From NCBI GenBank assembly GCA_944371905.1, contig CALVYA010000011.1, forward strand, positions 1 to 38,626: a DNA stretch of 38,626 nucleotides, written 5' to 3'. This DNA comes from an uncultured Bacilli bacterium. GTDB taxonomy: Bacteria > Bacillota_I > Bacilli_A > RF39 > UBA660. The translations under genes were made by a program, and so were the position numbers. The notes under the pieces are model-generated. The model searched no databases. It saw only the letters and a program-made list of their open reading frames with translations, and was not told where the DNA came from. Positions 12,565-22,187 of the stretch are shown here, in pieces. How positions within the stretch are numbered: the stretch's first letter is position 1; each line of letters begins with the position of its first letter.

Positions 12565-15015
12565 TTAACTTATAATAGCATTATCTATAAAATCGTTCCA
12601 TCTATCTGTAATTTTTTCTTTAGAAAATTTATGGGCTTTTACTAATGCTTTCTTCCCCATTTCTTTTCTTAATTTAACATTATTCATAAGTTCTTCTAGC
12701 TTCTGAATCATTTCAGTTTCATTTCTATTTTTAATAACAAATCCATCTATATTATTACTAATAATATCATTCACGCCACTTTCCGTCTCATAAGCAATAC
12801 ATGGGACTCCAATACTCATGGCTTCTAATAATACCATAGGTAATCCTTCACTAATAGATGTCATAATAAAAATGCTACTTTTATATAATTCATCTAAAAC
12901 TTCATTATGTGTTTTACTTCCTAATAATACTACTTTTTTAGTTAATTTATTTTCTTTAATTTGATTCATCAAATTTTCTTTTTCCTTACCATCACCAATA
13001 ATTTTAAAAGTCCATTTATTATCTTTCAATTTACTAGCAATATCAATAATTTCATTGATTCTTTTGCCTGCATCTAACCTACCAACAAAAATAACATTAT
13101 TATTATCTAAATTAGAACTTTTATGTACCACCTCTGCTAACATATTAGGCATAGTTATTACTTTAGTATTAGAGCCATTTAAAAACTGTTCATAATCTTT
13201 TTTTAACCCCTCAGTTAAAGCTAGAACATAATCAATATCAAAATAGTGATAATACATAGTTCTTATATACTTTTTATTATTGTTATGATGATAATGTTCT
13301 TGTGCTACTTTTAAAATATTTTTATTCCCATATCTATTTAATAGAGTAGTAAACTCAATCCGAGTAGACACTACAATACCTTCTTTAATATTTTTGATTT
13401 CTTTTTTCATCATAAAATGTTTTTTCCACAAAATTCTACTAGCTATCCAAGAGTTTTTGATTATAGATAGTATTCTTAAGTTTTTTATAGCATACAATAA
13501 TTCTTCTTTATTAGGACGTCCTTCATATAAATATTTTATTTTTACTCGCTCGTCTATATCATAAACATTATCTTTGGATAATCTATAAAAACATATAATT
13601 TGAACATCTTTATCTTTACACAAACTATTAGCAGTATTAATAGTAGCGTTCTCGATTCCTCCTACTCCCAGATGAAGAGATAAAAAGGTGATTTTGTTTC
13701 TATTTAATTTTTTCTTTTTAATTCCATCAAATAAATTTAATGTAAACACTGATATAAAGGCTAAATAGAAACTAACGGAAGGAGCACCAAATACATGACC
13801 GATAAAGAATCCAAATCCTATTCCAATTGCTGTGCCATATCCATAAATAATTTGTTCAAAACTAAGTTTAAATTTAGATTTAAAGGTAGTAACAGCTACT
13901 TTAAAAATAATCATTCCCACTGGTAGCATATAGATGATAAATCCAATAATTCCATACCTAAACAAAACATCAAATAAATCCATTTCTACTAGTTTCGATA
14001 TCCATCCATTATTAATTACTTCACGATTAGAAAATCCTATTCCAAAAAACTTATCTACCATAGAACTATCTTTATATATTTCATAAGCTGATTTTAACAA
14101 AACATCTCTTCCACTTAACATTACAATCTTTTGACCATCTGCTACTTGGCATTCTAATTCTCCTGTTTCTTTGTTATTAATGATTGTTCCATTATAATAA
14201 TCATTTTGACAATCTATTCTTTTTTCCAAATTAACATTCGCTGGAGTATAATTCTTAACGGCAATAGACACAATTATGATTAATGCTACTAAAATAAATT
14301 GTTTTAATTTTTTTCTTATATTAAACAAATAATAAATCGTTAAAAATGAAGTAATGATCAACATCCCATAATAAGGTGCTTTAGTTCCAATAGATAGAAT
14401 AGCTATTATAGTTATAATAATCATAGCACAATGTTTTACTGTAAATTTCCTATCTAAATATAGAAATAAAAATGGATATAAAATAGTTAAAATTGCAGAT
14501 ATTTCATTGGCAGAATAAAACCATCCTACAATTCCATAACCTTCTTTATTATTATAAGAATTAAATCCTGTTTTAGTAATTGTTGGAACAACAATCATGA
14601 TAGCATAAACTAATAAATTTAAGACAAAAAGATTAATTATTTTTTTACGATCAATTTTATACTGATCCACAAAGTTCATACATGAAATAAATAAAATTGG
14701 GAAATAGGAATACTTAAAAATATATACTATTTCATTATATAAAAATTCAAAATTAAAGAAAAATTCTTTTTTAGTTAATAAATAGAAAAGATAAAAAACT
14801 CCTAAAAGTATAATATAAATTATTGAAGTCTTACGATATTTAGACCGATTAAAAAAGAATAAATAACATAACATCACTACAATAAATATTCCCCTTATGA
14901 TTACACCTAATGATACAATAGCAACATCAAATCTAGTCATTAATGATGTTATTAAATCGATAAATGGTTGCAATAAAATAAACATATATAAAATTTTTAA
15001 ATACTTATCTTTCAT
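12565..15015 (-). CDS. O-antigen ligase/polymerase-like membrane domain fused to a GT4 glycosyltransferase
   Basis: One uninterrupted 816-codon frame joins two enzymes that are normally separate. Residues 1-435 hold about ten to twelve membrane helices with a large extracytoplasmic loop (about 255-345) bearing SGRD at 301-304 and FGIGFSN, as in the Wzy/O-antigen ligase family. Residues 441-816 form a cytoplasmic GT4: the N-terminal LGVGGIENATINTANSL, then the donor half with VIFVGRLDAGKR, WTFKIIGDGKEK and the EX7E signature in SEGLPMVLLEAMSIG. A basic linker, GIKKKKLNRNK, connects them. It is the first gene of the four-gene glycan operon and has its own promoter. It may both add a sugar and polymerise or ligate the glycan. 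Substrates unknown. Confidence 0.85.
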   Translation of the reverse strand: MKDKYLKILYMFILLQPFIDLITSLMTRFDVAIVSLGVIIRGIFIVVMLCYLFFFNRSKYRKTSIIYIILLGVFYLFYLLTKKEFFFNFEFLYNEIVYIFKYSYFPILFISCMNFVDQYKIDRKKIINLFVLNLLVYAIMIVVPTITKTGFNSYNNKEGYGIVGWFYSANEISAILTILYPFLFLYLDRKFTVKHCAMIIITIIAILSIGTKAPYYGMLIITSFLTIYYLFNIRKKLKQFILVALIIIVSIAVKNYTPANVNLEKRIDCQNDYYNGTIINNKETGELECQVADGQKIVMLSGRDVLLKSAYEIYKDSSMVDKFFGIGFSNREVINNGWISKLVEMDLFDVLFRYGIIGFIIYMLPVGMIIFKVAVTTFKSKFKLSFEQIIYGYGTAIGIGFGFFIGHVFGAPSVSFYLAFISVFTLNLFDGIKKKKLNRNKITFLSLHLGVGGIENATINTANSLCKDKDVQIICFYRLSKDNVYDIDERVKIKYLYEGRPNKEELLYAIKNLRILSIIKNSWIASRILWKKHFMMKKEIKNIKEGIVVSTRIEFTTLLNRYGNKNILKVAQEHYHHNNNKKYIRTMYYHYFDIDYVLALTEGLKKDYEQFLNGSNTKVITMPNMLAEVVHKSSNLDNNNVIFVGRLDAGKRINEIIDIASKLKDNKWTFKIIGDGKEKENLMNQIKENKLTKKVVLLGSKTHNEVLDELYKSSIFIMTSISEGLPMVLLEAMSIGVPCIAYETESGVNDIISNNIDGFVIKNRNETEMIQKLEELMNNVKLRKEMGKKALVKAHKFSKEKITDRWNDFIDNAIIS

Positions 15016-15274: not shown

Positions 15275-17371
15275 ATGAAAATCAAAAAAATATTAAAATC
15301 ATCGATCGTAATATTAACTTTAATGTGTATTAGTATATGTTTCACTCCAGTAGTAAAAGCTTTAACTTATACCCAATATACAGCAAGATGCATTGCATAT
15401 TTAGGATTAAATATTCGTAGTAGTGCTTCATCTAATGCCTCCATTGTTGGTAGTTTAGCACATAATGCTACTTTTACTTATACTGATAACGATATAGTTA
15501 AAAATACTAATGATTCGTGTAAAGAATGGATATATATAGCCTCTAAAAATGGGTATGTTTGTAAAGAATATACCGAAGTTACAAAAACAGAACAAATTAA
15601 TGATGAAAATGATAATGAAATGTCAGAAATGACTGACGCTGAATTTGATTCCTATTTAGATAGTCAAGGCTTCCCAGAAAGTTATAAAACAAAATTAAAA
15701 GAACTTCATAAAAAATATCCTTCTTGGGTATTTAAAGGTGTAAAAACAAATAGAGATTGGACAAGTACAGTAAAAGAAGAAAGTGAAATTGGTTATAGTA
15801 CATATTATATGGATGCTATAAGAGAATCAGCCGGACATGAAGCTTATTTAAATACTGATAGTCACTATGATTGGTCTACTAATTTATTTACAGGTTATGA
15901 TGGATGGTTTTTTTTAGCAAATGAACAAACAGTAGCGTATTTCTTAGATCCACGAAATTATTTAAATGAATCTAGTATCTTTATGTTTGAAAGTCTGTAT
16001 TATGATGCTAGTTATCAAACTAAAGACAAATTAAGTAGTATCCTAAGTACTAGTAAATATAATGATTATATTTACAATGCTGGGAAAGAATTTAATTACT
16101 CTCCTATTGCGTTAGCTATAAAAATAAGACAAGAAGGAACCATCGGAAATAGACCTACTAACGGCACAACTAGTGTAAGATGTAATGCTAGTCATTTATA
16201 CGATCCTAATGGAACTTTGTATTCTTCCCCTTTATACAATTTCTTCAATATAGGAGCTTCTTCTAGTCCTAGTAATGCAGACTTAAATGGATTGTGTTAC
16301 GCTGCTACCACTAATTCAAATTATTTATTACCATGGAATACGGAAGAAAAAGCAATAAGGGGTGGAACAAAATGGATAGCAAATCAATATGTTAGTGCCG
16401 GTCAATATACAAATTATTTTCAAAAATTTAATACCGCTAATCCTAATACAGAAATTTGGCATCAATATATGACTAATCTAGAAGATCCAAAATCACAAGC
16501 TAGTATTTTATATAATTTATATGCACAAACCAATATGTTAAGATCATCCTTTGTTTTTTATATTCCTATTTATAATAACATGCCAGATAAAACAGAACTT
16601 CCTACTCCTGGAAATCCTAACAACTGGTTGACTTCATTAACTATTAAAATAGGAAATACAACTAATTCTGTATCTAACTTTAATGGGAATACTACTTCCT
16701 ACACAGTTAATGTGGCAAGTAATGTAAATAATATTACCATTAATAGTACTACAGTTGCTAAAACTTCATATGTTTCTATTGATGGTAGTGCTAAATCTTT
16801 AAAAACACAATCAAAACAAGTTGCATTAAAAGAGAAAGAAAGTACTTTTAACATTGTGGTAACTGCTGGTAATGGCAACACTAAAACCTACACTATAAAA
16901 GTAATTAAAGAAGAATCATCCTCAGTAGAACAACCAACTATTGAAGAAATGTTAGAAAAAGCTAATTTAAACTATACAGCAGAATACATTAGCGGAATCA
17001 CTTTTGGTACTGGTAGTACTACGCTAACCAATCAATTATTAAAAACAAATAGTTTTGCTACTATTCAAATCACTAATAGTCAAGGGATAGCAAAACCAAC
17101 CGGAGCGTTAGGTACCGGAGACAAGGTAAAAATAACTAGCAATAGTGAAACTAAAACTTTTGAGATTGTACTATTTGGTGATATTAATGGGGATGGTACT
17201 ATCAATAATGTAGATTTATTAAGAGTGCAAAAGCATATTTGGAAAGATACCAACTTAACTGGCGCTTTTTATAAAGCTGCAGACATTAATAAAGACGGAG
17301 CTATTACTAATGTCGATTTATTAAAAATACAAAAACATATTTGGAAAGATGCAATCATTTCTCAAAATTAA
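15275..17371 (+). CDS. Secreted glucosaminidase (autolysin) with SH3b, cadherin-like and C-terminal dockerin domains
   Basis: This is a peptidoglycan hydrolase of the beta-N-acetylglucosaminidase superfamily. In order: signal peptide (1-29, VVKA cleavage), bacterial SH3 domain (about 35-103, LGLNIRSSASSNASIVGSL), glucosaminidase domain (about 235-420) with the proposed catalytic E287 in KIRQEGTIGN and the family signatures YNFFNIGA, NGLCYA, PWNTEEKAIRGGTKWIA and GQYTNYFQKFNT, a cadherin-like beta sandwich (453-546), a beta linker module (about 555-634), and a type I dockerin (635-698). The dockerin has two F-hand calcium loops, DINGDGTINNVD (636-647) and DINKDGAITNVD. I start at 15275 after GGGAG. 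The next gene, 11 bases on, encodes the likely membrane partner. Confidence 0.92.
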   Translation: MKIKKILKSSIVILTLMCISICFTPVVKALTYTQYTARCIAYLGLNIRSSASSNASIVGSLAHNATFTYTDNDIVKNTNDSCKEWIYIASKNGYVCKEYTEVTKTEQINDENDNEMSEMTDAEFDSYLDSQGFPESYKTKLKELHKKYPSWVFKGVKTNRDWTSTVKEESEIGYSTYYMDAIRESAGHEAYLNTDSHYDWSTNLFTGYDGWFFLANEQTVAYFLDPRNYLNESSIFMFESLYYDASYQTKDKLSSILSTSKYNDYIYNAGKEFNYSPIALAIKIRQEGTIGNRPTNGTTSVRCNASHLYDPNGTLYSSPLYNFFNIGASSSPSNADLNGLCYAATTNSNYLLPWNTEEKAIRGGTKWIANQYVSAGQYTNYFQKFNTANPNTEIWHQYMTNLEDPKSQASILYNLYAQTNMLRSSFVFYIPIYNNMPDKTELPTPGNPNNWLTSLTIKIGNTTNSVSNFNGNTTSYTVNVASNVNNITINSTTVAKTSYVSIDGSAKSLKTQSKQVALKEKESTFNIVVTAGNGNTKTYTIKVIKEESSSVEQPTIEEMLEKANLNYTAEYISGITFGTGSTTLTNQLLKTNSFATIQITNSQGIAKPTGALGTGDKVKITSNSETKTFEIVLFGDINGDGTINNVDLLRVQKHIWKDTNLTGAFYKAADINKDGAITNVDLLKIQKHIWKDAIISQN

Positions 17372-17382
17372 GGAGGGAGAAT

Positions 17383-18819
17383 ATGAAATTAAGAAAAGGA
17401 AAACTATTAGGATTTATCATTTTTACTCTATTTCTTGGACTTATATTTAAATTAGATGTTCATGCGGCTAGTGCTAACGTATCAATAACTAGTAATAAAT
17501 CAAGTTTAGTTGTTGGTAATACAGTAACTTTTACTGTAAGAGTCCAAGCTGATACCGCTATTGGTGCATGGGATTATGCTACTAATGTGTCTAGTAACTT
17601 AACCTATATTAGTGGTAGTCCAGTATCTAAAAGTGCAAATTTACCATCCAATAATTCCACCAAAGTAATTACTTATAGTTTTACTTATCGAGCAAATTCG
17701 TCTGGAACCGCAACTTTTAATTTTAGATTAAGTAATTTATTAGATTATAAAACAGAAAGTTTAATGAGCTTTCCAGCTAATACTTCTAAAAATATAAGAG
17801 TAATTACCCAAAGTGAATTAGAACAAAGTTATAGTAAAAATAATAATTTAAAAAGCTTATCAATTGAAGGATATCAACTATCCCCTACTTTTAATAAAAA
17901 TACTTTAGAATATAACGTTGAAGTTCCCAATGATGTTACTAAAGTAAAAATTAATGCTACTAAAGAAGATAGTACAGCATCTATACAAGGAACTGGTGAA
18001 AGAGAAGTTAGCGAAGGAAAAAATAAACTTGAAATTAAAGTCACAGCACAAAATGGATCAGTTAAAACTTATGTGATTAATGTAACTGTTAAAGAATTAG
18101 ATCCGATCAAAGTTAAAGTAGATAATGAAGAATTTAATGTCGTTAGAAAAGAATCACAAATAACTGCTCCTAATACTACTTTTACTAAAACAACCATTAA
18201 AATTAATGATTTAGAAGTTCCTGCTTTTGAAAACAAAAAATTAGGATATATATTAGTTGGCCTAAAAAATCAAGATGGAGATATCGCATTATACATATAT
18301 GATGAAAAAGAAAATACTTATACTCCATATTTAGAATATAATTTTAAATCTTCTATTATTTGTATCATTGATGATATAGATAAAATTCCTAAAGGATATA
18401 AAGAAGTTAAAGTAAAAATAGATGATAAAAATGTCACGGCTTATCAAAAAAATAAAAACTCTAAATTTTATTTATTTTATGGAATTAATGTAGAAACGGG
18501 AAAAGAAAATTTATACGTATATGATAGTGAAGAAAAAACAGTTCAAAGATATAATGATGAAGAAATAAATATAGAGGATGATAATACTAATGAAGAAATA
18601 TATCAATATGTAATCATTGGTCTTGGTTCATTATTAATTGTTACTTACCTAGTGTTATTGATATCGTTAATCAATAACAGTAGGAAAAAAAAGAGAATAC
18701 AAATGAAAAAAATGTCAAAAAAAAGAAGATTAGCTGAAGACGATAATAACAATCATAATACTACAGATAACGATAGCAATGATAATAATACTAAGGATGA
18801 AGAGAAAGAAGAAAAATAA
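17383..18819 (+). CDS. Membrane-anchored surface protein with cohesin-like and cadherin-like domains
   Basis: A signal peptide (1-29, ending VHAAS) is followed by a beta domain at about 32-139 (VSITSNKSSLVVGNTVTF, VRVQADTAIGAWDY, SSGTATFNFRLSN). This has the order of strands and spacing of cohesins, the receptors for dockerins. A cadherin-like beta sandwich (154-237, LKSLSIEGYQLSPTFN to KTYVINVTV) follows, then an unassigned region (238-400) with two similar blocks, a membrane helix (406-431) and a basic then Asn/Asp-rich cytoplasmic tail (432-478). Start ATG follows AGGAGGG. The gene is 11 bases after the dockerin autolysin, in one operon with a terminator. The cohesin call is moderate; another Ig-like fold is possible. 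Its cytoplasmic tail could signal or bind ribosome-like partners, unknown. Confidence 0.75.
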   Translation: MKLRKGKLLGFIIFTLFLGLIFKLDVHAASANVSITSNKSSLVVGNTVTFTVRVQADTAIGAWDYATNVSSNLTYISGSPVSKSANLPSNNSTKVITYSFTYRANSSGTATFNFRLSNLLDYKTESLMSFPANTSKNIRVITQSELEQSYSKNNNLKSLSIEGYQLSPTFNKNTLEYNVEVPNDVTKVKINATKEDSTASIQGTGEREVSEGKNKLEIKVTAQNGSVKTYVINVTVKELDPIKVKVDNEEFNVVRKESQITAPNTTFTKTTIKINDLEVPAFENKKLGYILVGLKNQDGDIALYIYDEKENTYTPYLEYNFKSSIICIIDDIDKIPKGYKEVKVKIDDKNVTAYQKNKNSKFYLFYGINVETGKENLYVYDSEEKTVQRYNDEEINIEDDNTNEEIYQYVIIGLGSLLIVTYLVLLISLINNSRKKKRIQMKKMSKKRRLAEDDNNNHNTTDNDSNDNNTKDEEKEEK

Positions 18820-20617: not shown

Positions 20618-20645
20618 AAAGGAGTTCAAAATGAACTCTTTTTTA
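20616..20645. terminator. Convergent terminator between rnjA and the surface protein gene
   Basis: GGAGTTCA/TGAACTCT with flanking A and T runs (AAAAAGGAGTTC, GAACTCTTTTTT) lies between two convergent genes and can act on both strands. Confidence 0.75.
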
Positions 20646-22121
20646 ATTTGTAATAACTACATAAGGATTACTACTAGTCCCATCTCCACCAGATATTTCT
20701 ACACTAGATTTCAAATTAATGACTGGTCTTACTCCTAACATAGCATTATTGACTTCACTGGCACCTAAAGCCCCATCAGCAATAATATTTCCAACATAAG
20801 CAGAACTTGAAAATATGAAAGGACTCATAGTCCAATAAGAGATACCAATAGATAAATAATAACTAGTATTATCCGGTGAGCTATTATTGTTTGATGTTGT
20901 TCCTCCGGCATACATAGCTTCATCCGCCGATATTAACCCGATTGGATACGATAACATTCCATTCCCATTACTATAACTACTATGATAAGTATATAGATCA
21001 TTACTTTGTGGGCATGAAAATTGTGGTTCGCTTAAATACATTATTCTAGAATGAGTTTCATAATCAGAATATTCAGCTCCATATCCAGGTCCTGCTGCTA
21101 AACTCCTATCACCGCAAAATCCGGCGTCTTCTAAATAAGAAGCATAAGTAAATAAACTTTTTCGATACCAATCATCTAACATTATTTTTATAGTACTATC
21201 AAATGCATTAGCGTGCGTTGAATCATAGTCGCTACTTTGAGGAAAACTATACATATATCCTAAGTAAGTATTATCACTGTATTCTTCATTAAATGCACTT
21301 GTCCCTATAGTGGCACTTGCTCCTGTTGCAGTTGCTGTTGTTCCCTGATAAATCATTCTTACACTAGAATCTTCGTTAATTCTAATTACTCTCCAATAGT
21401 ATCCTGCAAAACTTACATAATTATTCTCTACTGCTCCTCTAAAATAATACGTTGGTTGATTTCCTTGTGTATTAGTAGAAGTGTAATATAATCCTTTTGT
21501 TCCATCTTGCTCACTGGTTTTACTAAAATCAATATTACTATCATTTTTTTCTTCATTATCTTCTAATATAGCATTAACTAATGTTGGTGCTGATATTACT
21601 GGGTCACTTGGGGTTATACTTTGTCCATCATCTTGAATATAATTTAAAGTTATTGTTAACTCCTTCACTGGCTCATTTGGTATTTCGGTTGCATTGATAT
21701 CAAACTCAGTTGTAATTGTAAATGTCTTCGACTCACCTGCTAATAATCTTGTTCCCGATTGAATTCCTTCTATATTATATTTGATTACATAACTTCCTTG
21801 GTTTCCAGCATCAATACTTTCTAATATAGCATCTAAGGTTCCGTAATTTTGTACAGTTACTGTAAAAGTCATTTTATCTCCTGGCTCTTTTACTCCGACA
21901 TTAAAAGTCATAGTAGTATTACTATAAGTTGGTTCACTAATATTATATGCTCTTCCTGTTGAAGTACTTTCTACATTACTAATCCTTATCCCCCAACTAT
22001 CAGTTAAATTACTTGTTCCTTGAATATTTAGATTAGTTGAAAGTATTGCATACCCTACTGCCATAAATACTACTGCAATTAACATTACTACAATTATTTT
22101 AGTTTTTCTATTCCAATACAT
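20643..22121 (-). CDS. Large secreted/membrane-tethered surface protein with TasA-like leader and C-terminal DUF6273-like domain
   Basis: The N-terminus (MYWNRKTKIIVVMLIAVVFMAVGYAILSTN) has the K-rich start and long hydrophobic stretch typical of SipW-dependent (TasA/CalY type) leaders. A beta-rich domain follows (about 35-170, FNVGVKEPGDKMTFTVTVQNYGTLDA). After an acidic linker, residues 215-492 form a domain with FAGYYWRVIRINEDSSVRMIY near its start and SYWTMSPFIF, YVGNIIADG and GVRPVINLKSSVEISGGDGTSSNPY at its end. This layout is common in surface proteins of gut Bacillota and resembles DUF6273 or C-type-lectin-like formylglycine-generating folds. I start at ATG 22121 (RBS GTGGAG 9 bases upstream). 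Single gene; ligand unknown. Confidence 0.75.
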   Translation of the reverse strand: MYWNRKTKIIVVMLIAVVFMAVGYAILSTNLNIQGTSNLTDSWGIRISNVESTSTGRAYNISEPTYSNTTMTFNVGVKEPGDKMTFTVTVQNYGTLDAILESIDAGNQGSYVIKYNIEGIQSGTRLLAGESKTFTITTEFDINATEIPNEPVKELTITLNYIQDDGQSITPSDPVISAPTLVNAILEDNEEKNDSNIDFSKTSEQDGTKGLYYTSTNTQGNQPTYYFRGAVENNYVSFAGYYWRVIRINEDSSVRMIYQGTTATATGASATIGTSAFNEEYSDNTYLGYMYSFPQSSDYDSTHANAFDSTIKIMLDDWYRKSLFTYASYLEDAGFCGDRSLAAGPGYGAEYSDYETHSRIMYLSEPQFSCPQSNDLYTYHSSYSNGNGMLSYPIGLISADEAMYAGGTTSNNNSSPDNTSYYLSIGISYWTMSPFIFSSSAYVGNIIADGALGASEVNNAMLGVRPVINLKSSVEISGGDGTSSNPYVVITN

Positions 22122-22187
22122 AGGTATCAACTCCACTTCTATTATTATATTTATATTATACCTTTAAAAAGTATTGCTATCAAGAAA

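Follow-up and report, generated by a model that had tools for sequence, protein, structure and literature searches.

A dockerin-bearing SagB-type glucosaminidase and its cohesin-fold membrane anchor form a probable one-to-one tether outside the cellulosome

A secreted cell wall hydrolase and the membrane protein encoded directly behind it probably form a dedicated, one-to-one dockerin-cohesin tether of a non-cellulosomal kind, which would hold the hydrolase at the membrane (estimated probability about 0.83). Both genes lie in the window, the whole 38,626-nt stretch analysed here, which corresponds to contig 11 in the small (1.29 Mb) draft genome of a gut bacterium. Gene 1 encodes a secreted SagB-type glucosaminidase bearing a C-terminal dockerin, and this dockerin would plug into the cohesin at the N-terminus of the gene 2 product, presumably in a calcium-dependent way. 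Because the gene 2 product is a type I membrane protein, the enzyme would be held by noncovalent contact just outside the membrane, presumably where new peptidoglycan strands emerge, and the tether might restrict where the wall is cut. An earlier note on this DNA had proposed such a tether, and the reading gains support from the predicted cohesin fold, from the co-variation of the two domains and from the worse fit of the other candidates in the genome.

Organization of the locus

The two genes (products P0001 and P0002) comprise the following features.

15275..17371, forward strand: gene 1, SagB-type (GH73-like) N-acetylglucosaminidase by homology with C-terminal dockerin, 698 aa; ATG at 15275, stop at 17369-17371
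15275..15361, forward strand: signal peptide of gene 1, cleavage probably after VKA (by eye)
15404..15571, forward strand: SH3_3-like wall-binding domain (Pfam, under the cut-off)
15647..16594, forward strand: glucosaminidase domain, invariant Glu287 at 16133-16135 (relatives' alignment and profile search)
16628..16909, forward strand: cadherin-like beta-sandwich domain PF12733 of gene 1, residues 452-545 (Pfam)
17168..17368, forward strand: type I dockerin, calcium-loop repeats at 17180-17215 and 17282-17317 (Pfam and sequence reading)
17369..17382, forward strand: stop codon and 11-nt gap; the ribosome-binding site AGGAGG overlaps the gene 1 stop
17383..18819, forward strand: gene 2, membrane anchor protein, 478 aa; ATG at 17383, stop ends at 18819
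17383..17466, forward strand: signal peptide of the anchor (by eye)
17464..17829, forward strand: predicted cohesin domain, divergent; Glu125 at 17755-17757 is a candidate partner of basic dockerin helix residues (predicted fold and relatives' Pfam matches)
17836..18090, forward strand: cadherin-like beta-sandwich domain PF12733 of the anchor (Pfam)
18103..18588, forward strand: two related extracellular repeats of an unnamed family in the anchor (by eye)
18601..18672, forward strand: transmembrane helix of the anchor (hydrophobicity)
18673..18816, forward strand: charged cytoplasmic tail of the anchor, with a basic stop-transfer start; the remainder is not conserved

The coordinates and anatomy previously assigned to both genes, including the 11-nt spacing, are correct. 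The earlier note had also seen no cellulase or CBM nearby, and Pfam scans of 10 other window proteins found none.

The enzyme and its dockerin

The gene 1 product is assigned by homology as a SagB-type glucosaminidase. As a single sequence it has no Pfam glucosaminidase match. A profile built with 18 relatives retrieves Staphylococcus aureus SagB (6u0o_B) at 9.6e-36 and also the Atl glucosaminidase, LytE and Clostridium perfringens AcpCD; the entries taken here to be SagB and AcpCD bear other molecule names in the search table. The best NCBIfam match is likewise SagB, at 38.6 bits against a cut-off of 425, which indicates a relative of SagB and not SagB itself. E287 is invariant across the 18 relatives, consistent with a GH73-like catalytic domain with a conserved Glu. 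No other sequence in the genome matches the protein in full, and one further Pfam glucosaminidase is encoded on contig 9. As an alternative to cleavage, the signal peptide of the enzyme could serve as an uncleaved membrane anchor.

The enzyme ends in a two-F-hand type I dockerin, as had been noticed from the letters. Pfam dockerin I matches residues 635-689 at 5.8e-13, and both calcium loops are present in two repeats of the form Dx[N/D]xDGxxxxxD (D636/N638/D640/D647 and D670/N672/D674/D681). G635, D636 and D647 are invariant among the 18 relatives.

The anchor carries a predicted cohesin domain

Hydrophobic stretches of the anchor are confined to residues about 6-30 and 406-433, corresponding to a signal peptide and one membrane helix. 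The N-terminal domain is predicted to have a cohesin fold. AlphaFold2 modelled residues 28-149 from 56 sequences with a pLDDT of 94 and a pTM of 0.85, and the top Foldseek match of the model is a C. perfringens cohesin (2.9e-05). In VIA-align, three C. perfringens cohesins rank first with Z scores of 11.8, 11.6 and 11.6 (2w1n, Z 11.8 over 117 residues, rmsd 3.5; 2jh2, Z 11.6 over 113 residues, rmsd 2.6), and other cohesins follow from Z 10.4 downward. Non-cohesin sandwiches also score highly, including an adhesin domain (Z 11.2) and a TRAP translocon subunit (Z 10.7), so the sequence evidence for a cohesin matters. Pfam Cohesin PF00963 matches 54 of the 56 protein-family members (E<=0.01), a profile search of the PDB with the domain finds cohesins down to 1.4e-7, and in at least 12 host-family genomes an above-cut-off Pfam cohesin match falls on the first domain of the anchor. 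The window's own copy has no match to PF00963. The earlier note had called this domain cohesin-like and held that a fold unlike cohesin would count against the tether; the fold predicted here is that of a cohesin, although the Pfam model misses the window copy.

The same note had described gene 2 as encoding an unusual transmembrane receptor with a cytoplasmic tail. The transmembrane anchor stands, and a single cohesin anchored in the membrane has a precedent (PMC11557425). Signalling through the tail, and with it the term receptor, is unsupported because the charged tail is not conserved; some relatives have only a few residues there and others over 60.

The enzyme-anchor arrangement is conserved

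The 80 relatives retained from a search of named genomes are uncultured MAGs; most titles give Bacilli, Tenericutes, Mollicutes or Firmicutes, and several also a gut source. The 135 loci with a full-length anchor comprise the window, its own contig-1 paralogue and loci from relatives, some contigs being counted twice. When loci are selected by the anchor alone, a dockerin-ending ORF lies directly upstream in 131 of the 135, and an arrangement that recurs to this extent is far beyond chance. The gap between the dockerin gene and the anchor is -8 to 73 nt, mostly 8-15. Two of the four exceptions lie at contig ends, and the other two (L087 and L088) have a different gene upstream. In the genomes of the latter two the dockerin shares a contig with the anchor: in G019, where the gene order is reversed, it follows the anchor directly downstream, and in G046 it is about 13 kb off.

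Where the enzyme was looked for (54 loci), a P0001 relative lies upstream of the anchor in 51. Among 115 relatives, 61 contain matches to P0002, some of these matches covering the cadherin-like domain alone. All 10 host-family genomes that have no anchor match have no dockerins, and 12 of the 13 host-family genomes that lack either the dockerin or the anchor also have no catalytic domain. In the one exception, G116, the dockerin is absent while glucosaminidase and anchor are both present. The cohesin domain was detected in 7 of 295 genomes of the phylum, five of them from the host family (our own genome included) and two from another family of the class.

The dockerin and the cohesin co-vary

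Of the 131 dockerin pairs, 117 are non-identical, and 114 of these have 250 or more residues ahead of the dockerin. Across these 114 non-redundant pairs, dockerin distances correlate with cohesin-domain distances at r 0.74, compared with r 0.44 for the dockerin and its own catalytic part and r 0.48 for the cohesin domain and its own cadherin-like neighbour. Controlled for the catalytic, cadherin-like and C-terminal parts, the signal peptide and the pre-dockerin segment, the dockerin-cohesin partial r is 0.64 (0/1000 permutations), and restricting the analysis to type a gives 0.41 (0/1000). Judged by these distances, the dockerin and the cohesin-like domain appear to evolve together, each being tied far less closely to the remainder of its own protein. 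At the level of residues, mutual information does not clearly exceed that of the control blocks (maximum of 0.325 for the dockerin and the first anchor domain, 0.333 for the dockerin and the cadherin-like domain). The relation extends to fifteen hand-picked cassettes with proteins other than the autolysin, which give r 0.66 (0/5000) with L227 omitted and three domains cut at a fixed offset.

The types of the two partners also match. Dockerin helix types agree with the domain clusters in 81/81 cases for type a, 7/8 for b, 11/11 for c and 6/6 for d, counts that omit eight dockerins of other types; L071 has a dockerin motif of type b, yet its domain clusters with type a. A tree of the remaining parts of both proteins (L091 omitted) requires 11 changes for each trait. 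When independent contrasts are taken on supported branches, agreement is 5/5 for c, 3/3 for d and an average of 1.8/2 for b, none being significant alone. In the unlinked pairs of G019 and G046, type c is found on both sides. By these sequence comparisons, at least four dockerin types keep to matching anchor types, also where the genes are non-contiguous.

Such matching could in principle arise if the end of gene 1 and the start of gene 2 were exchanged as one recombining block, so that the domains look co-evolved without binding. We consider this unlikely. In its favour, a mere 100 nt or so separate the end of the dockerin from the start of the cohesin in most loci, but the anchor signal peptide, which lies between both domains in the DNA, has a partial r of 0.00, an imperfect control because signal peptides diverge fast, and the stretch immediately preceding the dockerin has -0.01. 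Moreover, the types match in G019 despite the reversed order and in G046 across about 13 kb, and chance linkage leaves the cohesin fold of the domain unexplained.

A candidate contact and a co-fold

A charge pair provides a possible contact for the proposed tether. In a sample of 84 pairs, consisting of type a and four similar pairs after exclusion of a single gapped row, the cohesin E125 position is acidic in 43/50 cases when dockerin helix position 19 is basic (R650; likewise position 53, K684), compared with 8/34 where position 19 is non-basic. With the tree controlled for, the averages are about 5 agreeing and no opposing pairs among 8 independent ones (median p about 0.06), and E125 is the best of 17 columns.

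The co-folding proposed by the earlier note was run on the pair of a relative, L156, as a read-through of dockerin, signal peptide and cohesin (204 residues, 14 rows). The model reached a pTM of 0.77, with a pLDDT of 78-98 in the dockerin and cohesin blocks (78-91 in the dockerin) and mostly below 50 in the linker. Compared with a pTM of about 0.6, our own estimate for undocked domains, this value suggests docking of the dockerin on the cohesin and is consistent with the proposed pairing.

Other dockerins and cohesins in the genome

The genome encodes three dockerin proteins: the glucosaminidase, a 1588-aa repeat protein and a 750-aa surface protein, the latter two described by eye. No plant-polysaccharide enzyme is among them. 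The 1588-aa protein, on contig 1, carries a type b dockerin and is paired with a type b anchor (P0003); the third dockerin is internal and is not adjoined by an anchor gene. P0004, also on contig 1, has the only Pfam cohesin match in the genome and a membrane helix, and it has no dockerin neighbour. No scaffoldin with several cohesins was found, the single Pfam cohesin match being the only one genome-wide and each anchor having one cohesin.

A better-fitting cohesin elsewhere in the genome had been named as a possible objection to the tether, and both candidates fit worse: P0003 is the partner of a dockerin of another type, and P0004 has no dockerin next to it. That the autolysin dockerin docks on P0004, with the downstream anchor serving something else, is slightly less probable still than the recombining block. 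P0004 is the only Pfam-level cohesin of the genome and likewise has a membrane helix; against this, no dockerin gene adjoins it, the sole same-genus genome drawn besides G000 (G003) has one comparable match, and it is the adjacent anchor that is conserved alongside the autolysin and co-varies with its dockerin. Least probable is a minimal, cellulosome-like surface complex with several dockerin proteins on one anchor, for although dockerin matches are numerous in some relatives (12 in G048, 10 in G024 and 10 in G055) and two dockerin genes precede one anchor in two regions (L252 and L258), each anchor has a single cohesin, the two C-terminal dockerins of our genome differ in type and have their own anchors, and the third dockerin is internal.

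Among other host-family dockerins, an anchor gene adjoins 14/29 of the C-terminal and 0/14 of the internal ones; one of those 14, L270, is another autolysin cassette. The domains of types b, c and d have no Pfam cohesin match, and sequence search finds no solved cohesin for them, but profile comparison relates them to type a with a probability of 97%, against 0.3% for the cadherin-like control. They may represent hidden cohesins that current models miss. It seems rather likely that dockerin-cohesin pairing in the host lineage is a general means of one-to-one membrane tethering, with several mutually exclusive specificities and no scaffold, in which the b, c and d cohesins lie beyond Pfam recognition and our genome has two orthogonal pairs, one of which would set the site of SagB-like cutting.

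Relation to known systems

The dockerin-cohesin connector is best known from cellulosomes, machines that digest cellulose. The present pair resembles the type I cellulosomal system in its dockerin with two F-hand calcium loops, located C-terminally on a secreted hydrolase, and in the predicted cohesin fold; it differs in that no multi-cohesin scaffoldin and no CBM were found, the hydrolase acts on peptidoglycan and not on cellulose, and each enzyme has one anchor, which is transmembrane. The closest folds, the C. perfringens non-cellulosomal cohesins (2jh2, 2vo8 and 2w1n) and an Archaeoglobus cohesin (2xdh), are also used outside cellulosomes. According to the PDB titles, the C. perfringens cohesins sit in glycoside hydrolases, whereas here the cohesin would belong to a dedicated membrane anchor, one-to-one with the enzyme.

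The nearest solved catalytic relative is S. aureus SagB (6u0o), an N-acetylglucosaminidase that associates with the membrane and whose position is set by the membrane protein SpdC (PMC10581084). A membrane partner holds a glucosaminidase there as proposed here, but SpdC is a CAAX-protease homologue, in contrast to a dockerin-cohesin plug on a single-pass anchor. The present pair may therefore be a second solution for keeping a SagB-type hydrolase at the membrane. A cellulosome survey lists single-cohesin proteins with a C-terminal transmembrane helix and calls their binding partners unclear (PMC11557425); the anchor has the same one cohesin and C-terminal helix, but its likely partner is encoded adjacently and co-varies with it. 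PMC6403190 cites cell wall hydrolases of Ruminococcus that likewise bear dockerins, which join them to a cellulosome scaffoldin, and PMC9012536 gives precedent for non-cellulosomal dockerin-cohesin pairs in archaea. Dockerin-bearing wall hydrolases, transmembrane single cohesins and non-cellulosomal pairs thus all have precedents; for a dedicated enzyme-anchor cassette with matched types we did not find one in titles and abstract openings, among which few subscription papers are covered.

If the tether operates as proposed, dockerin-cohesin pairing would shift from the digestion of food polymers to the control of the cell's own wall. With over 100 natural pairs, sorted into four or more specificity types, the family makes dockerin-cohesin recognition directly testable and is a possible source of orthogonal connectors. 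A role of the tether as a sortase substitute was considered and rejected: sortase is present in 64 of 68 host-family genomes, with two matches in our own genome, so the tether does not replace it.

Variation in the dockerin-anchor arrangement

In one relative (G116, contig 5; loci L295 and L288), a glucosaminidase gene adjoins the gene for a cohesin-bearing anchor, and the encoded glucosaminidase stops short of any dockerin. No Pfam dockerin was found in the G116 genome. It is possible that the dockerin, the plug of the pair, was lost in G116 and that the cohesin socket was retained.

At two other loci (L252 and L258), a single anchor gene is preceded by two successive dockerin genes of identical type, and one socket is perhaps common to two clients. 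At L263 (contig 82 of another relative, G022), a dockerin shares a single polypeptide with a cohesin/cadherin-like region that has a membrane helix.

Further proteins of the window's own genome

A third cohesin protein with a membrane anchor is encoded on contig 1 (L004:1411-2955). By eye, this protein has several cadherin-like domains and its gene adjoins a polysaccharide-deacetylase-like gene; no dockerin gene was observed among the neighbours. The protein encoded on contig 28 (L094:3761-6010) appears by eye to be related to the window protein at 20643-22136, and a complete dockerin seems to sit midway in their common domain, as an insertion in the contig-28 copy. Elsewhere in the window, an 816-aa protein (12565-15015) fuses an O-antigen-ligase-like membrane domain to a group 1 glycosyltransferase.
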